A DNA stretch of 59,062 nt. Source: Flavobacteriales bacterium. GTDB taxonomy: Bacteria; Bacteroidota; Bacteroidia; CAIKAF01. The position numbers and the translations under genes are program-made. Where the stretch lies: contig JAOABX010000015.1 of NCBI GenBank assembly GCA_026418175.1, forward strand, positions 1-59,062. Direction: 5' to 3'. Shown here piece by piece: positions 50,274 to 59,062 of the stretch (position 1 is its first letter; each line of letters starts with the position of its first letter). The notes below the pieces were generated by a model that worked only from the letters and a program-made list of their open reading frames with translations, was not told where the DNA came from and did no database searches.

Positions 50274-50531
50274 ATGGTAAAAAAATCTACTCTCTGCGAA
50301 GAACTGGAACTCCGTGGTGCTTTCGGCCCGGTATGCATTGAAGCTACTGCCAAACGTAAGTCGGCTGACGAGGATGATGACGACGATGACGAAGAATATG
50401 ATGATGACGACGATTATTATGATGACGATGAGGATGCTGACGACGAGGATGAAGAATTTTTCGATGATCCGGAGTTTGACGATTTTGATACATTCGATGA
50501 AGATGAAGACGACGATGAAGATTATTATTAA
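50274..50531 (+). CDS. Small, extremely acidic protein
   Basis: An 85-residue protein with two parts: an ordinary N-terminus of about 30 residues (KKSTLCEELELRGAFGPVCIEATAKRK, two cysteines) and a tail of about 55 residues made almost only of Asp, Glu, Tyr and Phe. The tail should be disordered and strongly negative. It has its own promoter and a strong terminator, so it is expressed alone. Function unknown; such tails can mimic nucleic acid or bind basic partners, but that is speculation. It is a real gene rather than a repeat, as the frame is closed by proper signals. Confidence 0.8.
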   Translation: MVKKSTLCEELELRGAFGPVCIEATAKRKSADEDDDDDDEEYDDDDDYYDDDEDADDEDEEFFDDPEFDDFDTFDEDEDDDEDYY

Positions 50532-52411: not shown

Positions 52412-54316
52412 ATGAGCGAAATGAATGATATCCGTAATTTCAGTGAATATCAGAAGGCTTATCATTTAAGTCTTGAAAATCCAGAAAAATTTTGGAATGA
52501 CATTGCGCTTGATTTTTATTGGAAAAAAAAGTGGGAAAAAACGTTGCAGTGGAATTTTACCCAACCCGATATAAAATGGTTTTGTGGTGGAAAATTAAAT
52601 ATTACTGAAAATTGCTTGGATCGTCATTTAGATGTATTGGGCAATCATCCGGCCATTGTTTGGGAGCCCAACCATCCTGAAGAGCACACAAGAATTTTAA
52701 CTTACAATGAATTGTACCTACAAGTGTGCCGATTTTCGAATGTACTAAAAAACTTAGGGGTTTATAAAGGCGATCGGGTTTGTATTTATATGCCAATGGT
52801 GCCTGAAGTAGTAATTGCCATGCTTGCCTGTGCCCGTATTGGGGCGGTTCATTCTGTAGTATTTGGAGGTTTCTCGGCAACGGCTCTTCGAGAGCGGATA
52901 ATAGATGCGCAAAGCACGGTGATAATTACTACCGATGGGGCTTATCGTGGCGCTAAGCAAATTTCAATGAAGCAAACCGTGGATGAGTCGTTGGAACATG
53001 TGAACATTGAACAAAAAGTAATTGTACTTCGGCATACAGGCCAACCAGTTTCCATGATTTCAGGACGGGATGTATGGTGGCACGAAGCCATGCAATCAGC
53101 ATCGGATGAATGTGAAGCAGAAGAAATGGATGCCGAGGATATGTTATTTATTCTTTATACTTCCGGTTCAACGGGTAAGCCCAAAGGCGTGGTACACACC
53201 ATTGGCGGATACATGGTTTATACCGGATACACGTTTAAGCAAGTATTTCAATATCAGCCGGGAGAAGTGTTTTGGTGTACGGCCGATGTAGGTTGGATTA
53301 CCGGCCATTCATATGTGGTTTATGGCCCTTTGCTGAATGGAGCTACGGTGCTGATGTTTGAAGGTGTGCCTAACTGGCCCGATCCTTCACGTTTATGGCA
53401 AGTTATTGATAAATATAAGGTGAATATATTTTACACGGCACCTACTGCTATTCGGGCCTTAATGGCAGAGGGGGATGATTGGTTAAAGCCATATTCTTTG
53501 CAAAGCCTGCGTGTCATTGGTAGTGTAGGTGAGCCTATTAATCACGAAGCCTGGGAATGGTTTTACCATCAGGTAGGAAAGGGGAAATGCCCGCTCGTTG
53601 ATACCTGGTGGCAAACAGAAACCGGAGGCATTATGATTGCTCCATTGGCTGGAATTACACCATTAAAACCTACGTATGCATCGTTGCCTCTACCGGGCAT
53701 TCAACCTGTTTTGTTGGATAATGAAGGGAATGAAATTCTGGAAAATGAAAAAGAAGGATTGTTATGCATAAAATTTCCGTGGCCTTCTATGATTCGTACT
53801 ACTTACGGCGACCATGAACGTTGCCGTCAAAATTATTTTGCTGCATTCTCCGGTTATTACTTTACGGGAGATGGTGCACGGCGTGATAAAGATGGTTTTT
53901 ATCGCATCATTGGCAGGGTAGATGATGTGATAAATGTATCCGGACATCGCATTGGTACAGCAGAAGTTGAAGATGCTATTAACGAACATGAAAACGTAGT
54001 TGAATCTGCTGTAGTGGGGTATCCTCACTCCATCAAAGGGCAGGGAATTATTGCCTTTGTGATTTGCAATCAGGTGCCGGTAAATGAAGAAGAAACCCGA
54101 AAAGAAATTGGGGAGGTGGTATCACGCATCATCGGGCCGATAGCCCGCCCGGATAAAATTATTTTTGTGCCTGGATTGCCCAAAACCCGTTCCGGAAAAA
54201 TCATGCGTCGCATTCTTCGGAAAATTGCCGAAGGAGATGTGTCAAACCTGGGTGATACCAGCACATTGCTTGACCCCTTTGTAGTGGAGAAGATAATGCA
54301 GGCAATGAAGGGTTGA
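52412..54316 (+). CDS. acs: Acetyl-CoA synthetase (AMP-forming)
   Basis: Makes acetyl-CoA from acetate, ATP and CoA. The 634 residues carry the ANL-family motifs: P-loop YTSGSTGKPKG (249-259), the WWQTETGG motif (about 405-412), the hinge and A8 region FTGDGARRDKDGFYRIIGR, and the acetylation-regulated lysine K596 in RSGKIMRR. The missing PTA-AckA neighbours mean acetate use rather than overflow cannot be decided. It ends the conserved part of the window. Confidence 0.96.
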   Translation: MSEMNDIRNFSEYQKAYHLSLENPEKFWNDIALDFYWKKKWEKTLQWNFTQPDIKWFCGGKLNITENCLDRHLDVLGNHPAIVWEPNHPEEHTRILTYNELYLQVCRFSNVLKNLGVYKGDRVCIYMPMVPEVVIAMLACARIGAVHSVVFGGFSATALRERIIDAQSTVIITTDGAYRGAKQISMKQTVDESLEHVNIEQKVIVLRHTGQPVSMISGRDVWWHEAMQSASDECEAEEMDAEDMLFILYTSGSTGKPKGVVHTIGGYMVYTGYTFKQVFQYQPGEVFWCTADVGWITGHSYVVYGPLLNGATVLMFEGVPNWPDPSRLWQVIDKYKVNIFYTAPTAIRALMAEGDDWLKPYSLQSLRVIGSVGEPINHEAWEWFYHQVGKGKCPLVDTWWQTETGGIMIAPLAGITPLKPTYASLPLPGIQPVLLDNEGNEILENEKEGLLCIKFPWPSMIRTTYGDHERCRQNYFAAFSGYYFTGDGARRDKDGFYRIIGRVDDVINVSGHRIGTAEVEDAINEHENVVESAVVGYPHSIKGQGIIAFVICNQVPVNEEETRKEIGEVVSRIIGPIARPDKIIFVPGLPKTRSGKIMRRILRKIAEGDVSNLGDTSTLLDPFVVEKIMQAMKG

Positions 54317-54575
54317 GAAAGTATTATACATATTAGAAATGAACCTGACCTTCATGTGCAAACACAATGTAAGCTAAATTCCAATAGCCAAAATTGAGTG
54401 TTGGTGTTATATTATTCTTGAATGAAAAAGAGTAAAAATTATACCCTCTGTTTTTATTACCAATTTTTTGTATATATCCATTCAATTGAACTAATATTTT
54501 TTTTGAATTGAACAAATTTGACTATAACCCAGCTAAATATTTAAAAAATATTTAAAAAGTGCTTAAATAATTAAT
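54317..54575. other. AT-rich non-coding segment, possible gene remnant
   Basis: No confident gene. A minus-strand frame at 54333-54515 ends in NLAYIVFAHEGQVHF and could be the tail of a decayed gene; I do not recognise it. The rest is AT-rich without repeats longer than a few bases. It ends with the TTAAT target site of the mobile element that follows. Confidence 0.4.
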
Positions 54576-54844
54576 CCCAAAATTGTCATTAGGGATAATT
54601 TTCTAATGGCGGTCATTAGGATTTTATGTTTTTAACTCTTAGAAAAACAGATATTTACGTTGAATGATTCTGCAAAATTTAGTTGAATTTGACCGTAAGA
54701 AAATCTTACATTATGAAAGACATTAACATGTTCTTAACTTTCCTTTGCATTGAAACAATTAGAGCGGTTTATGAGCTGTGGATGAACACCATCTACATCA
54801 AACCATCTTTCGTTTTAGTTTCCTAATGACAATTTTGGGTTAAT
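54571..54844. mobile_element. 264-bp MITE with 18-bp perfect inverted ends
   Basis: Positions 54576-54839 are bounded by CCCAAAATTGTCATTAGG (54576-54593) and its exact reverse complement (54822-54839). Immediately outside both ends is TTAAT (54571-54575 and 54840-54844), a 5-bp target-site duplication. No transposase frame lies inside. Within the left end, GTCATTAGG recurs at 54616-54624 and CTAATG/CATTAG form a small hairpin. It is a non-autonomous element moved in trans by an unidentified transposase. Confidence 0.85.
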
Positions 54845-54847
54845 TCT

Positions 54848-55045
54848 AGAAAAATTATTCAATCCATTACAAGCTCATTACAGCCGATATAAGAGCATCA
54901 AAAAATTACAAACTCAAAAATTAAGAGAAAAGCCAGGATTCGTTAAAACGCTTTTAATAAGGCCGATATAAAACCAATGATTCCAAAAGAAAATTTTTTA
55001 AAACGTTGTGCAGCGGCTACCGCTGTTGGCAGCTGGCATTTTGTC
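54848..55045. repeat. Left copy of a ~190-bp direct repeat
   Basis: Nearly identical in sequence and orientation to 58621-58820 (offset 3773-3774, one indel). Within a 68-nt stretch (54867-54934) only two bases differ. It begins with codons matching the end of the IS1182-type remnant (ending QPI-stop in both copies) and ends in the boundary motif. GCCGATATAA occurs twice inside each copy. The minus-strand propeller gene ends inside this copy. Confidence 0.85.
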
Positions 55046-58000
55046 GTCTTGCTCATTATCACTTAAATTGATGTCCCTTATAATAACAACACCGTCAGAG
55101 CTTAGTGTCATAATTCTACTTTCGTCTTCTGAAAATGCTACAAAGGTCACTTTCTTAGTTTTGTTGTCTTTGATTTTATCACCGTGTCCCGTGAATGAGT
55201 CAATTATTTGCCCATTAACTGTCTTTGCAATATGAACAACATTAGATTCTTGATGTCCATACCCTCCTAAAGTCAAAGGTTCATAACCTTGTTCAGATAA
55301 AGCTAAATAATTACCTGTCGGACTGAAACAAAGAAAATTTTTACCTTTTATTACATTCCACTTTTTGTAAGTATTGTAAATGTTTGTTTTTGATTTATAA
55401 ATATTTTGTCTCAACTCAACTTCTGTTGTTTTGCTGTCAAAAAGGCCATCATCAACAAAAAGGATGTATGTGTCTGGTGTGCTATCATAAGTTGCGAAAT
55501 ATCCAGTTTTGGAAAATCCACAGACCCAAGATGCGTAACGTGGGTATCTGCTCAAATATGTGTCAGATACTAAAAGTTTTGAGTTTACTTCGTCAAAATC
55601 AATTTTAAATAAGTGGATTAGTCCATTTGACGATGGCTTGCCAACATATCCAAAATACTTGTTATCGTAACTGAAAGCTGAATAATTGTAGAAAGCTAAA
55701 TCCTCTGGAAAATGTACTTCCGTAATAATATTTGTGCCTGTTATGCCAATTTCAGTGAATCTATCCACTTTAATCACTGATTGTGATGTGATTTTGTTGT
55801 AATCTTCAATACCTATTTCTTTAAATTGATTTTTAAATGAATTGTAAATATCTTTTCTATTCTCCGACACTTTAATTTTTGCTTCTTCTCTTTCATCTTC
55901 TTTAAGGAAAATACTTGGATCGTCTAAGTTCTGTCTAATTTTAGCAACTTCATCTGCCTTTAATTCTTTACCATTTAGTTTATTAAAAAACCTTACTTTG
56001 GATGACACTTGTGCATAAAGTTTACCATCTGGACTAATAAACCTATAATAATGATAGTTAGGGGGAGTAATATCTTGAAATGTTTTTGGGTCAATTATTT
56101 TCACTGCTTTTGTACCATCTTGCTCTACTATAAGACTACCGTCATTTCTAAACGCCAAAAAGTTACCGGAAATGAAGTTTATAGTTTCGCCCTTTTCGAT
56201 ATCATACAAGGAATATATATTGCTTTCATCTTGAAGAACCAAAAATTGACCGTTTGGGGAAAGATATGATTCCCTGTATTTGTTGTCATCAATTGATATT
56301 TCCCATAAATCATACTTTGCTGTTTGAGGATTAAATTTGGAAAGGTAGATTTTGTTGATTCTATGCGATACAATTTTGTTTAATTGATTAGAGCATGATT
56401 CAATGTAGCCAATAAATACATCTTTTATTTCAAGAGTTTTTGGGTTGAAAACTATTTGATTAGACGATAAAGCGTACTTCTCAAAAAACTTAAAGTCCAA
56501 AGCATCTTTGAAAAGTGAATGTTGCACCTTTTGCTCATCGATTAGTATTCTTGAGCAGTTTTTTAAATCAAATGCATTCAAATATTTTGTGTTGGATATA
56601 TTTTTTTCTTTTCCACGATACCATATGATTTGATGTTTTTTGAAAAGGTCAGGATTCAGAATTTCTATTTGCTCTAAAATGGCATTATTTGGATTGGTTG
56701 AACAGAAAAGTGAATACCTTTCTTTTGATTTTATTAAAAAATAGGGGATTTCGTTTATAGTGAAGAGCTCTATCGAATCTTCATTGTTGAGCGCAACTTT
56801 ATTCCTTCCTGAAAATAAAATTTTAGTGCCTTCATGGCTTACGACAAGCATATCTTTAAGATATTTGTAAACGGTCAGGTTAGGAGTTTTATCGATTAAA
56901 ATATCTACTCTCTCCGTGTTTAAAAACAGAAGGGTTATTTCAGAACCTTCTATAACATATGGTGTAGCAGTCCATGTGGCTTGGTGCTTTCTGAGAGTAA
57001 CTCCAATAAAATCTCTTTTTATTCTCTTTTGAATTATAAAAACACCATTTTTAGTAGGGTAAACTTCATGGGTTGTAATTATTTCTGATATTCTTTGGGG
57101 TTCAGGAAGTTCGTAATTATAATATGTTTTAGCATCAGGTAGTGAAGAAATCATTTTTTCCTTAATTTCTTCCGATTTTGTATTCAGGTCGGTTAGTTCG
57201 ATTTCCCTCCTTAGCTGCTTGCCAATATGAATATAGTTATCACTTTGCAAATTAATTTCAAAATCAAGATTGACCGTTTCTGAGTAAATTGCATGTAAAC
57301 TTGTGCATTTTATCGTTCTTTTATAGAGTGTGAATACATTACCTAATTGGTCTATTGCATTGTTTTCATTTTTGGGTATTTCTAAGGACTTATGGAAATT
57401 GTTTAAGCTTGAAACTTTCAATACTTCATTATGATTGATATAAATTATCTGATTGGAATCATCTAAAAAGTAGTCATTAAAATTTTCAAATGATTTTAAC
57501 TCTGTAAAATATTTATTGGTTTGATGTATTAATTCAAAGCAATGAATTGTTTTGGATTTTATGTTATAAAGCCAAGCTTTATTATTATCGGCTAATATTT
57601 TAATTTCACGATAGTCGTTTAATAATTCTCCGACTAATGAGAAAGTTTCTGTGTTGTAAATTCCAAGGTTAACAATTCCGCTGGCAGTATTTCCTACTTT
57701 AGTTACAAATAAAAAATTTGTTTCATTGATTTTGTGAATCTCTGTTGGGCTATAATGGTTTTCAGTCAGCAATATTTTCTTTTTCTCATCATAAAGTAAT
57801 AATCTGTCCTTCATCAGAAAGAAGGAATATTCTGTATCATCAAAAACAAAAGCCTTTTTGAATTCACTTGACCCAAGTCTGAAGGCTTCTTTTATCTCCA
57901 ATTCTTGCTGAAAAACCGTATTGTTAAAATTGCATTTTGCAATTAAATGTCCTGTTGCATTAACACTTGTAAGTAAAGTTGGATTTTTAGAATTAGCTTC

Positions 58001-58123
58001 AATAGACTTGACAATTTTGTCTTGGTCGTAAATGTCAATTTTCAAATTGTCAACCGAGGAAACAATTTGAAACTGGCTATTTCTATATCCTATACTCGGG
58101 AATATGTTAAAAGGTCTTTTCAT
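54998..58123 (-). CDS. 1041-residue beta-propeller-like protein of unknown function
   Basis: A very large cytoplasmic protein (no signal peptide or membrane segment). The N-terminus (about 1-75) is Ig-like in character (QFQIVSSVDNLKIDIYDQD...); the remainder is a long series of short beta strands alternating with loops, best explained as one or two WD40-type beta-propellers. The clearest blade is near the end (VTFVAFSEDESRIMTLSSDGVVIIRDINL); others are LSPNGQFLVLQDESNIYSLYDIE and FSPTGNYLALSEQG. Around 735-790 there is a charged helical insert. The last 13 residues (MPAANSGSRCTTF) are encoded by the left flanking repeat. I see no enzyme motif. Base composition and codon use look more AT-rich than neighbours. 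Could be a conflict-system scaffold (as bpX-type propellers with MoxR-vWA are), but no partner is in the window. Confidence 0.75.
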   Translation of the reverse strand: MKRPFNIFPSIGYRNSQFQIVSSVDNLKIDIYDQDKIVKSIEANSKNPTLLTSVNATGHLIAKCNFNNTVFQQELEIKEAFRLGSSEFKKAFVFDDTEYSFFLMKDRLLLYDEKKKILLTENHYSPTEIHKINETNFLFVTKVGNTASGIVNLGIYNTETFSLVGELLNDYREIKILADNNKAWLYNIKSKTIHCFELIHQTNKYFTELKSFENFNDYFLDDSNQIIYINHNEVLKVSSLNNFHKSLEIPKNENNAIDQLGNVFTLYKRTIKCTSLHAIYSETVNLDFEINLQSDNYIHIGKQLRREIELTDLNTKSEEIKEKMISSLPDAKTYYNYELPEPQRISEIITTHEVYPTKNGVFIIQKRIKRDFIGVTLRKHQATWTATPYVIEGSEITLLFLNTERVDILIDKTPNLTVYKYLKDMLVVSHEGTKILFSGRNKVALNNEDSIELFTINEIPYFLIKSKERYSLFCSTNPNNAILEQIEILNPDLFKKHQIIWYRGKEKNISNTKYLNAFDLKNCSRILIDEQKVQHSLFKDALDFKFFEKYALSSNQIVFNPKTLEIKDVFIGYIESCSNQLNKIVSHRINKIYLSKFNPQTAKYDLWEISIDDNKYRESYLSPNGQFLVLQDESNIYSLYDIEKGETINFISGNFLAFRNDGSLIVEQDGTKAVKIIDPKTFQDITPPNYHYYRFISPDGKLYAQVSSKVRFFNKLNGKELKADEVAKIRQNLDDPSIFLKEDEREEAKIKVSENRKDIYNSFKNQFKEIGIEDYNKITSQSVIKVDRFTEIGITGTNIITEVHFPEDLAFYNYSAFSYDNKYFGYVGKPSSNGLIHLFKIDFDEVNSKLLVSDTYLSRYPRYASWVCGFSKTGYFATYDSTPDTYILFVDDGLFDSKTTEVELRQNIYKSKTNIYNTYKKWNVIKGKNFLCFSPTGNYLALSEQGYEPLTLGGYGHQESNVVHIAKTVNGQIIDSFTGHGDKIKDNKTKKVTFVAFSEDESRIMTLSSDGVVIIRDINLSDNEQDDKMPAANSGSRCTTF

Positions 58124-58360
58124 TTGTTTCGTTTGTCTTTATGCTTGCTGCTAACGTTTTGTGTTTTGCTGCAGTTGGCGATTTTGGAGCACTTTACTGT
58201 CAACCTGCACGAAAGTTTGATAGGTGCACACGGTTTTAATTATGCATGACAACGCCAATTGAGCCAAACGGCTGTGCCTGTTGCACAACTAACGAAAGGT
58301 AGTAAATAACTTTAAAAAAAACAATAATTAAACTGTGGAGTATGTAGGTATTTTAGTGTC
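58124..58360. other. Cassette-boundary-like segment upstream of the propeller gene
   Basis: No gene. Two CTAACG motifs at 58151-58156 and 58289-58294 bound it. In between is GCAGTTGGCGATTTTGG (58170-58186) and, 62 nt later, its inverted core CGCCAA (58253-58258). The stretch ACGCCA...GTTGCACAACT (58252-58290) recurs, inverted, at the end of both direct repeats. I know similar TAACG/GGCG-TTTTGG intergenic motifs from other Bacteroidota accessory genes; that comparison is from memory. Confidence 0.45.
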
Positions 58361-58665
58361 ATGCAAGGAAGAAAAGAATTACAACAAAAATGATATATCA
58401 GTTCAGTTTGGAGGAACTGGTGGCAGAAGATAATTTTTATCGGCAATTGTCTTTTAACCATGCTAACAGTTGACATCAGAGGAATGCAAGGAGCCATAAA
58501 TATGTGCTGTTAAGTGCCATTAGTTATAACCTGAAGAAGTACCTGAAGTTTATCCACAAAAAGGCAAAAGTAAATGCCCAAGTTATAAGGGTAGAAGGGA
58601 GCATAACGATAGAAAGAATAAAAACATTTTTTCAATCCCTTATAAGCTCATTACAGCCGATATAA
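58361..58665 (+). pseudogene. Decayed IS1182-family transposase
   Basis: The start MQGRKELQQK (58361-58390) continues after a 1-base frameshift in an A-run as MIYQFSLEELVAEDNFYRQL (from 58390), the typical IS1182 transposase N-terminus. Then a large internal deletion and a TGA (58471-58473) lead straight to the C-terminal part HQRNARSHKYVLLSAISYN, LKKYLKFIHKK ... FFQSLISSLQPI (58474-58662; TAA 58663-58665). Only about 90 of the usual 400-500 residues remain, so it cannot be active. Its last codons lie within the right direct repeat. Confidence 0.7.
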
Positions 58666-58820
58666 GAGCATCAAAAAATTACAAACTCAAAAATTAAGAG
58701 AAAAACCAGAATTCGTTTCAACGCCTCTAATAAGGCCGATATAAAACCAATGATTCCGAAAGAATATTTTTAAAGTAAGTTGTGCAACGGCTACGCATGT
58801 TACCAGCTGGCGTTCTTGTC
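58621..58820. repeat. Right copy of the ~190-bp direct repeat
   Basis: Matches 54848-55045 in the same orientation. It contains the end of the transposase remnant, about 110 bp of conserved 3' flank and the boundary motif (AGTTGTGCAAC, 58778-58788, and CAGCTGGCGT, 58804-58813). Read on the minus strand, the frame equivalent to the propeller tail would give TPAGNMRSRCTT. Confidence 0.85.
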
Positions 58821-58901
58821 CACCGTGTTTGTAAACCATTGTAGTTTTTGAGTTTCACTGTCTTTGTCGGGTTGGTTAGTGTGTCGGGTGTGTTAATTTT
58901 T

Positions 58902-59062
58902 TCAGAAGTGAGAGGAAAAAAATTGCATTACTTCTAGGGTTAGGAAAGCCCACTCTTTTCCAAGTTTTAGCTTGTTTGTCGGCTTTTGGGACTTGGCAAT
59001 GTGTGTGCTTTTTTGCGTAGGCGTTCCGTTATCTTGTTGTCTTTTGATATATTCTATTAATA
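58902..59062 (-). CDS. Partial open frame at the window edge
   Basis: A minus-strand frame enters from beyond the right edge and ends with TGA at 58902-58904. The visible 53 residues include KSTHIAKSQKPTNKLKLGK and end FFSSHF. It may be the 3' end of the next accessory gene or only boundary DNA that happens to be open. No function can be assigned. Confidence 0.3.
   Translation of the reverse strand, partial: LIEYIKRQQDNGTPTQKSTHIAKSQKPTNKLKLGKEWAFLTLEVMQFFSSHF

Follow-up and report, generated by a model that had tools for sequence, protein, structure and literature searches.

The IntI-specific domain of integron integrases is held to be essential for cassette recombination. Integron surveys recognise IntI by this additional domain (PMC9668308, PMC2426708, PMC9024848), and the one complete integron that IntegronFinder 2.0 names for Bacteroidetes proper is that of Salinibacter (PMC9024848). 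A classification of recombinases describes the insertion as 'not fully conserved' in its integron-like subgroup (PMC8138268), so relatives of the recombinase described here may already sit there unnamed. We analysed a stretch of 59,062 nt from a Flavobacteriales bacterium (contig JAOABX010000015.1, assembly GCA_026418175.1; hereafter the window), which is an entire contig of a 2.7-Mb, 80-contig genome. On the basis of sequence and predicted structure, which supply all the evidence below, we conclude that the region at its right end is very probably the decayed distal end of a cassette array, belonging to an integron-like system found across Bacteroidota. Apparently, this Bacteroidota integron type is undescribed; its recombinase, its entry site and its hairpin exchange sites are all its own. 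We found no description of it in the open-access literature; subscription papers and preprints lay outside the scope of the search, and a prior description is possible.

An initial annotation of the window had read this region as an accessory island built like a gene cassette, with two direct repeats of ~190 bp as its boundaries. The cassette character holds, with the propeller gene as the probable cassette of an integron-like system, whereas the repeats are not the boundaries. The initial annotation further proposed that homologous recombination between the repeats would excise the propeller gene together with a transposase remnant. The repeats are indeed real: 54855–55045 and 58628–58820 lie in the same orientation, 88% identical over 193 nt and with a spacing of 3773 (the annotated 3.77 kb). 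However, an alignment of five copies from the source genome revealed that the repeat is mostly the right end of an IS1182-family insertion sequence (IS), joined to the end of a hairpin site, and this alignment ruled out the repeats as cassette ends. The intact IS lies elsewhere in the genome (C79:67.7–69.6 kb) and encodes a 513-aa transposase that scores 331 bits with NF033551, above the NCBIfam cut-off of 270, which places it in the IS1182 family. Cassette ends match at other positions than the repeats, the unit with matching ends (55026–58154) holds no transposase, and arrays in other genomes have sites but no IS. We give excision through the repeats a very slight chance.

In the window, the first repeat copy contains an IS right-end remnant (54850–55019, plus strand), recognised by alignment to the right end of the intact IS and located in the former distal site of the propeller cassette; the repeat itself continues to 55045. 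The second copy (58628–58820, plus strand) consists of an IS right end and a site end. It overlaps an IS1182-family element with a large internal deletion (58275–58793, plus strand), which keeps two transposase pieces and the ends GCCTGTTGCACAACT... and ...AGTTGTGCAACGG, and which shares 81% identity with the intact IS at its two ends. The decayed transposase seen earlier, at about 58362–58665, belongs to this element and matches the intact IS1182-family transposase. Very probably, an element of this family struck both sites flanking the propeller gene and later decayed. Some other IS families sit in or target attC sites. IS1182-family ends occupy one and the same position close to the hairpin's right end in several genomes (window 58275–58793, L009:7780–9540, L012:1–480, L069:5606–7167 and L027), which suggests that IS1182-family elements target the hairpin sites.

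The true boundaries are the hairpin sites. An attC-like 132-nt site, broken by the IS near its right end, occupies 58149–58274 on the plus strand (covariance model R1, 90.4 bits, E 6e-21). Beyond the IS, the residual end of the interrupted site (..ATGTTA) lies at 58794–58802 on the same strand, with the crossover between 58799 and 58800; it matches a site end in genome G008 with the same following sequence. Of 60 relatives, 21 contain the sequence to the left of the IS, and the IS part recurs hardly at all. A DNA search with the repeat itself, which returned almost only copies from the source genome, at first hid this wider family, and the search with the boundary motif revealed it. The expectation that the repeat would be found elsewhere in Bacteroidota thus largely fails for the IS part and holds for the boundary motif, which is phylum-wide; the annotated motif copies are real and are pieces of hairpin sites.

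Each site reads TAACG, then one arm, then ~70 nt of conserved inner sequence, then the matching arm and finally GTTA; its length is near-constant, mostly 132 nt with flanks. In 18 aligned elements the arms form a 23-bp hairpin with 98.3% of cells paired. The arms diverge strongly between copies yet stay complementary, 14 of the 23 pairs having changed on both sides, and in 500 shuffles the observed pairing values are never reached. Within the class, 144 of 198 genomes have matches to model R1; across the phylum, 64 of 118 do.

The sites are tied to one recombinase. In genomes G025 and G035, successive sites are separated by one or two genes, everything runs in the same direction, and the series begins behind a tyrosine recombinase of 370 aa. 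The source genome has its own recombinase at C9:2628–3758, with cassettes and a site end beside it. With a profile built from four recombinases, 446 relatives are found in named genomes, and the locus statistics here refer to the best 80 of these 446, Flavobacterium and Pedobacter isolates included. Across the 80 loci, 122 sites lie in 265 kb downstream of the recombinase against 2 in 684 kb upstream, and 121 of the 122 downstream sites share one strand. Where at least 2 kb of downstream sequence is available, sites are present in 31 of 34 loci. The contig breaks off within 500 bp on the downstream side of the recombinase in 26 of the 80 loci and within 500 bp on the upstream side in 2, a pattern that assembly breaks at repeats would produce. 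In 88 of 95 cassettes (median length 942 bp) the longest open reading frame (ORF) runs in the integrase direction, its stop codon near the site.

We also note what some of these loci carry. The first two cassette genes behind the integrase of the source genome (G000:C9, L012:509–2498) encode PRTase-CE and NADAR domain proteins, resembling defence-type cargo, and a restriction-modification-like gene cluster lies between two sites at L065:1632–8247. On the plasmid NZ_CP041688.1 of Chryseobacterium sp. SNU WT5 (L177), five sites lie downstream of the recombinase, so plasmids carry the system as well.

If cassettes travel as circles and the first bases of each cassette complete its site, complementarity is required between the bases that follow GTTR and those that precede YAAC. 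Over 75 cassettes, 4.60 of 5 positions pair, compared with 1.87 (standard deviation 0.13) for shuffled ends and 2.05 when the next cassette in line is used; among the 95 cassettes of a larger set, 85 pair at 4–5 of the 5 positions. Cassettes of the source genome on C79 and C17 obey the same rule. This is the pattern that movement as circles, with crossover at G|TT, would leave. The closure bears on a further explanation, namely that the 132-nt hairpin is a miniature inverted-repeat transposable element (MITE) or another self-moving repeat that merely lies between genes. In favour of this, the hairpin is short, repeated, palindromic and widespread. However, its polarity downstream of one recombinase is fixed, one or two genes separate the copies, and the outside bases are complementary between the two ends of one interval and not across one copy; the moving unit is a gene plus one site. 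A self-moving hairpin is scarcely credible.

By the closure rule, the complement of the first cassette's end locates an entry site at +87 to +111 behind the recombinase in 28 of the 38 loci that have a first site. Its core, TATAnnnWA|GTT, is present in 45 loci (at most 58 have enough sequence) and is preceded by a covarying inverted repeat. The source genome has three entry sites, on C9, C17 and C79. The arrangement agrees with the functional definition of an integron: the recombinase adjoins the array, with 122 of 124 sites downstream in the 80 loci and the source genome represented by C9; a primary entry site lies next to the integrase; and a cassette is a gene with one 3′ recombination site, uniformly oriented in the array. 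TAnnTTTG, the Bacteroidota promoter element, occurs within 60 bp of the integrase stop codon in 37 of 58 loci, compared with 2 of 58 for the opposite strand. A promoter of this type behind the integrase gene may drive the cassettes, for which expression is predicted.

Comparing loci reveals traces of movement. One cassette occupies the entry site of L161 and recurs, 99.3% identical over 698 bp, in the middle of an array in G110, where it follows a hairpin site; the two loci have the cassette alone in common, and the match stops precisely at G|TT. A second cassette, of 2417 bp, is common in full to L088 and L114, at 80.6% identity. A separate case concerns the Acinetobacter baumannii plasmid NZ_CP044520.1 (L179:4378–7415), on which tet(X5) lies behind a truncated gene related to the broader recombinase family, and an entry-site-like palindrome and TT|GTTATGTGC precede the resistance gene. 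Neither a hairpin site nor a closing end was found in this tet(X5) region. The truncated gene is probably the 'xerD' of the published xerD-tet(X) contexts, and tet(X) may have arrived there as a first cassette.

Applied to the window, the closure rule delimits the propeller cassette. Its ends pair at 5 of 5 positions, with GCTGC before TAACG at 58152 and GCAGC after GTTG at 55025; the cassette body is therefore 55026–58154 on the minus strand, 3129 bp from crossover point to crossover point, the lost distal site excluded. The surviving end of its own recombination site, GCTG|TTG-GCAGC (55019–55033, plus strand), carries the GCAGC that fits the cassette start, and the remainder of that site is missing. 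The cassette encodes a WD40-like propeller protein of 1041 aa (54998–58123, minus strand), a beta-propeller by weak Pfam matches, whose final residues are encoded by the hairpin site and the IS end. This is the one large orphan gene annotated earlier: among 149 genomes of the class searched, the protein occurs in the source genome and in none of the other 148. On the integrase-proximal side, the 3′ end of the next cassette (58803–59062, minus strand) is cut by the contig end and shows 90.5% identity over 74 bp to the sequence after the G008 site. With the IS splitting its proximal site and most of its distal site gone, the propeller cassette looks stranded; judging from these sequences, it is probably immobilised and no longer mobile.

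The cassette recombinase differs from IntI in several respects. The IntI-specific insertion around patch III is missing, which leaves a gap of ~42 aa against IntI1, IntI4 and the IntI of G153, and the TIGR02249 scores of 194–218 bits fall under the curated cut-off of 265. In our tree the cassette recombinases form their own clade, separate from IntI and Xer, with the family's position relative to IntI not firmly placed because long branches meet. By both sequence and fold, the catalytic part is best matched by archaeal XerA (5hxy, 4a8e), and IntI4 stands lower down in the fold matches. In contrast to the chromosome-dimer recombinases XerC, XerD and XerA, the cassette recombinase is tied to arrays, and the source genome has separate XerD- and XerC-like genes. 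It also possesses an N-terminal domain of ~75 aa with a confident predicted model (predicted local distance difference test, pLDDT, 89). The best structural matches of this domain are an archaeal XPB N-terminal domain (Z 7.5) and T4 UvsW (Z 6.8), within a range of Z 6.1–7.5 in which chance likeness is possible. As a hypothesis only, the domain might recognise distorted or branched DNA.

These properties can be weighed against an ordinary integron, with canonical IntI and canonical attC sites, that surveys have overlooked. As in class 1 and chromosomal integrons (IntI, attI, attC), a tyrosine recombinase adjoins an entry site, cassettes consist of a gene and a 3′ hairpin site, the circles are predicted with G|TT crossover and complementary cassette ends, a promoter candidate lies before the entry site, and some arrays lack an integrase, resembling clusters of attC sites lacking integron integrases (CALIN). 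The recombinase has an IntI-like C-terminal SP-D motif, and one relative bears the NCBI name 'site-specific tyrosine recombinase/integron integrase'. The sites also share with canonical attC an imperfect hairpin with unpaired bases and a variable arm sequence on a kept structure. In contrast, the Bacteroidota integrase lacks the IntI insertion, carries the N-terminal domain and is usually directed toward its cassettes, and its sites have a conserved inner region and a near-constant length. The canonical core (GTTRRRY / RYYYAAC) is absent: GTTRRRY occurs in 6 of 95 cassettes, about chance level, in a set whose extraction itself required GTT. Five regions around canonical IntI genes of the same phylum contain none of these sites, whereas five regions with the insertion-less recombinase contain more than 30. 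On the core motif and these control IntI loci, we rejected the sites as canonical attC, and we consider an overlooked ordinary integron very unlikely.

Canonical IntI genes above the TIGR02249 cut-off do exist in the phylum (G153:C40, G469:C88, G399:C5, G423:C10 and G395:C23), in some genomes beside the new system. We also notice a variant, in L202 (G423:C33) and L203 (G429:C44), that has the same site family and a recombinase of 280–306 aa, too short for the N-terminal domain. In both, the recombinase is directed away from the cassettes, which is the geometry of class 1 integrons.

The distal flank of the array is a housekeeping gene, as annotated: an acsA-like acyl/acetyl-CoA synthetase gene (52412–54316, plus strand, 634 aa) whose stop codon ends at 54316. 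Its orthologues in three congeners show 71–87% identity, and no hairpin site lies 3′ of them; the sequence there is different and offers no exact empty site. The absence of the propeller protein from 148 genomes and of a site after acsA in the congeners agrees with an accessory gene. Between acsA and the array lies the MITE-like element noted before (54576–54839, strand not assigned), with perfect 18-bp terminal inverted repeats CCCAAAATTGTCATTAGG at 54576–54593 and 54822–54839. A partial second copy, 80 bp and 99% identical, lies at another contig end of the source genome (G000:C20:30282–30361). An Rfam search of the region gave zero matches, even at E 1. Upstream, at 50274–50531, an 85-aa ORF consists in its second half nearly entirely of Asp and Glu.

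Taken together, we propose that a tyrosine recombinase of about 345–400 aa would recombine an entry site, ~100 bp behind its gene, with the 132-nt hairpin sites, one of which stands at the 3′ end of each cassette. Cassettes would travel as circles with crossover at G|TT in the hairpin ends; in the window, the propeller gene represents one cassette and the right contig end contains part of the next. We infer from these patterns that a recombinase of this family catalyses the exchange and that it may act on a folded single strand. Several points weigh against the proposal. The window itself contains neither integrase nor entry site and ends inside the array, position 59062 being an assembly end, and the propeller cassette has lost most of its distal site. 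Three loci with more than 2 kb downstream (L097, L126 and L147) have no detectable site, and the hairpin covariation fits a double-stranded palindrome equally well as a folded single strand.

Beyond the array itself, we see an even chance of a broader picture: a second integron platform in Bacteroidota, of separate origin from IntI, in which an insertion-less Xer-like integrase reads folded 132-nt sites through its N-terminal domain, by a predicted XPB/UvsW-like recognition of DNA distortion, and which is a main route of accessory gene exchange in the phylum. If our reading of the system is true, surveys have missed a system that passes the same cassette between genomes and that about three quarters of the sampled Bacteroidia genomes contain; it is found on chromosomes as well as on a Chryseobacterium plasmid. 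The system would then test whether another solution can replace the IntI domain.

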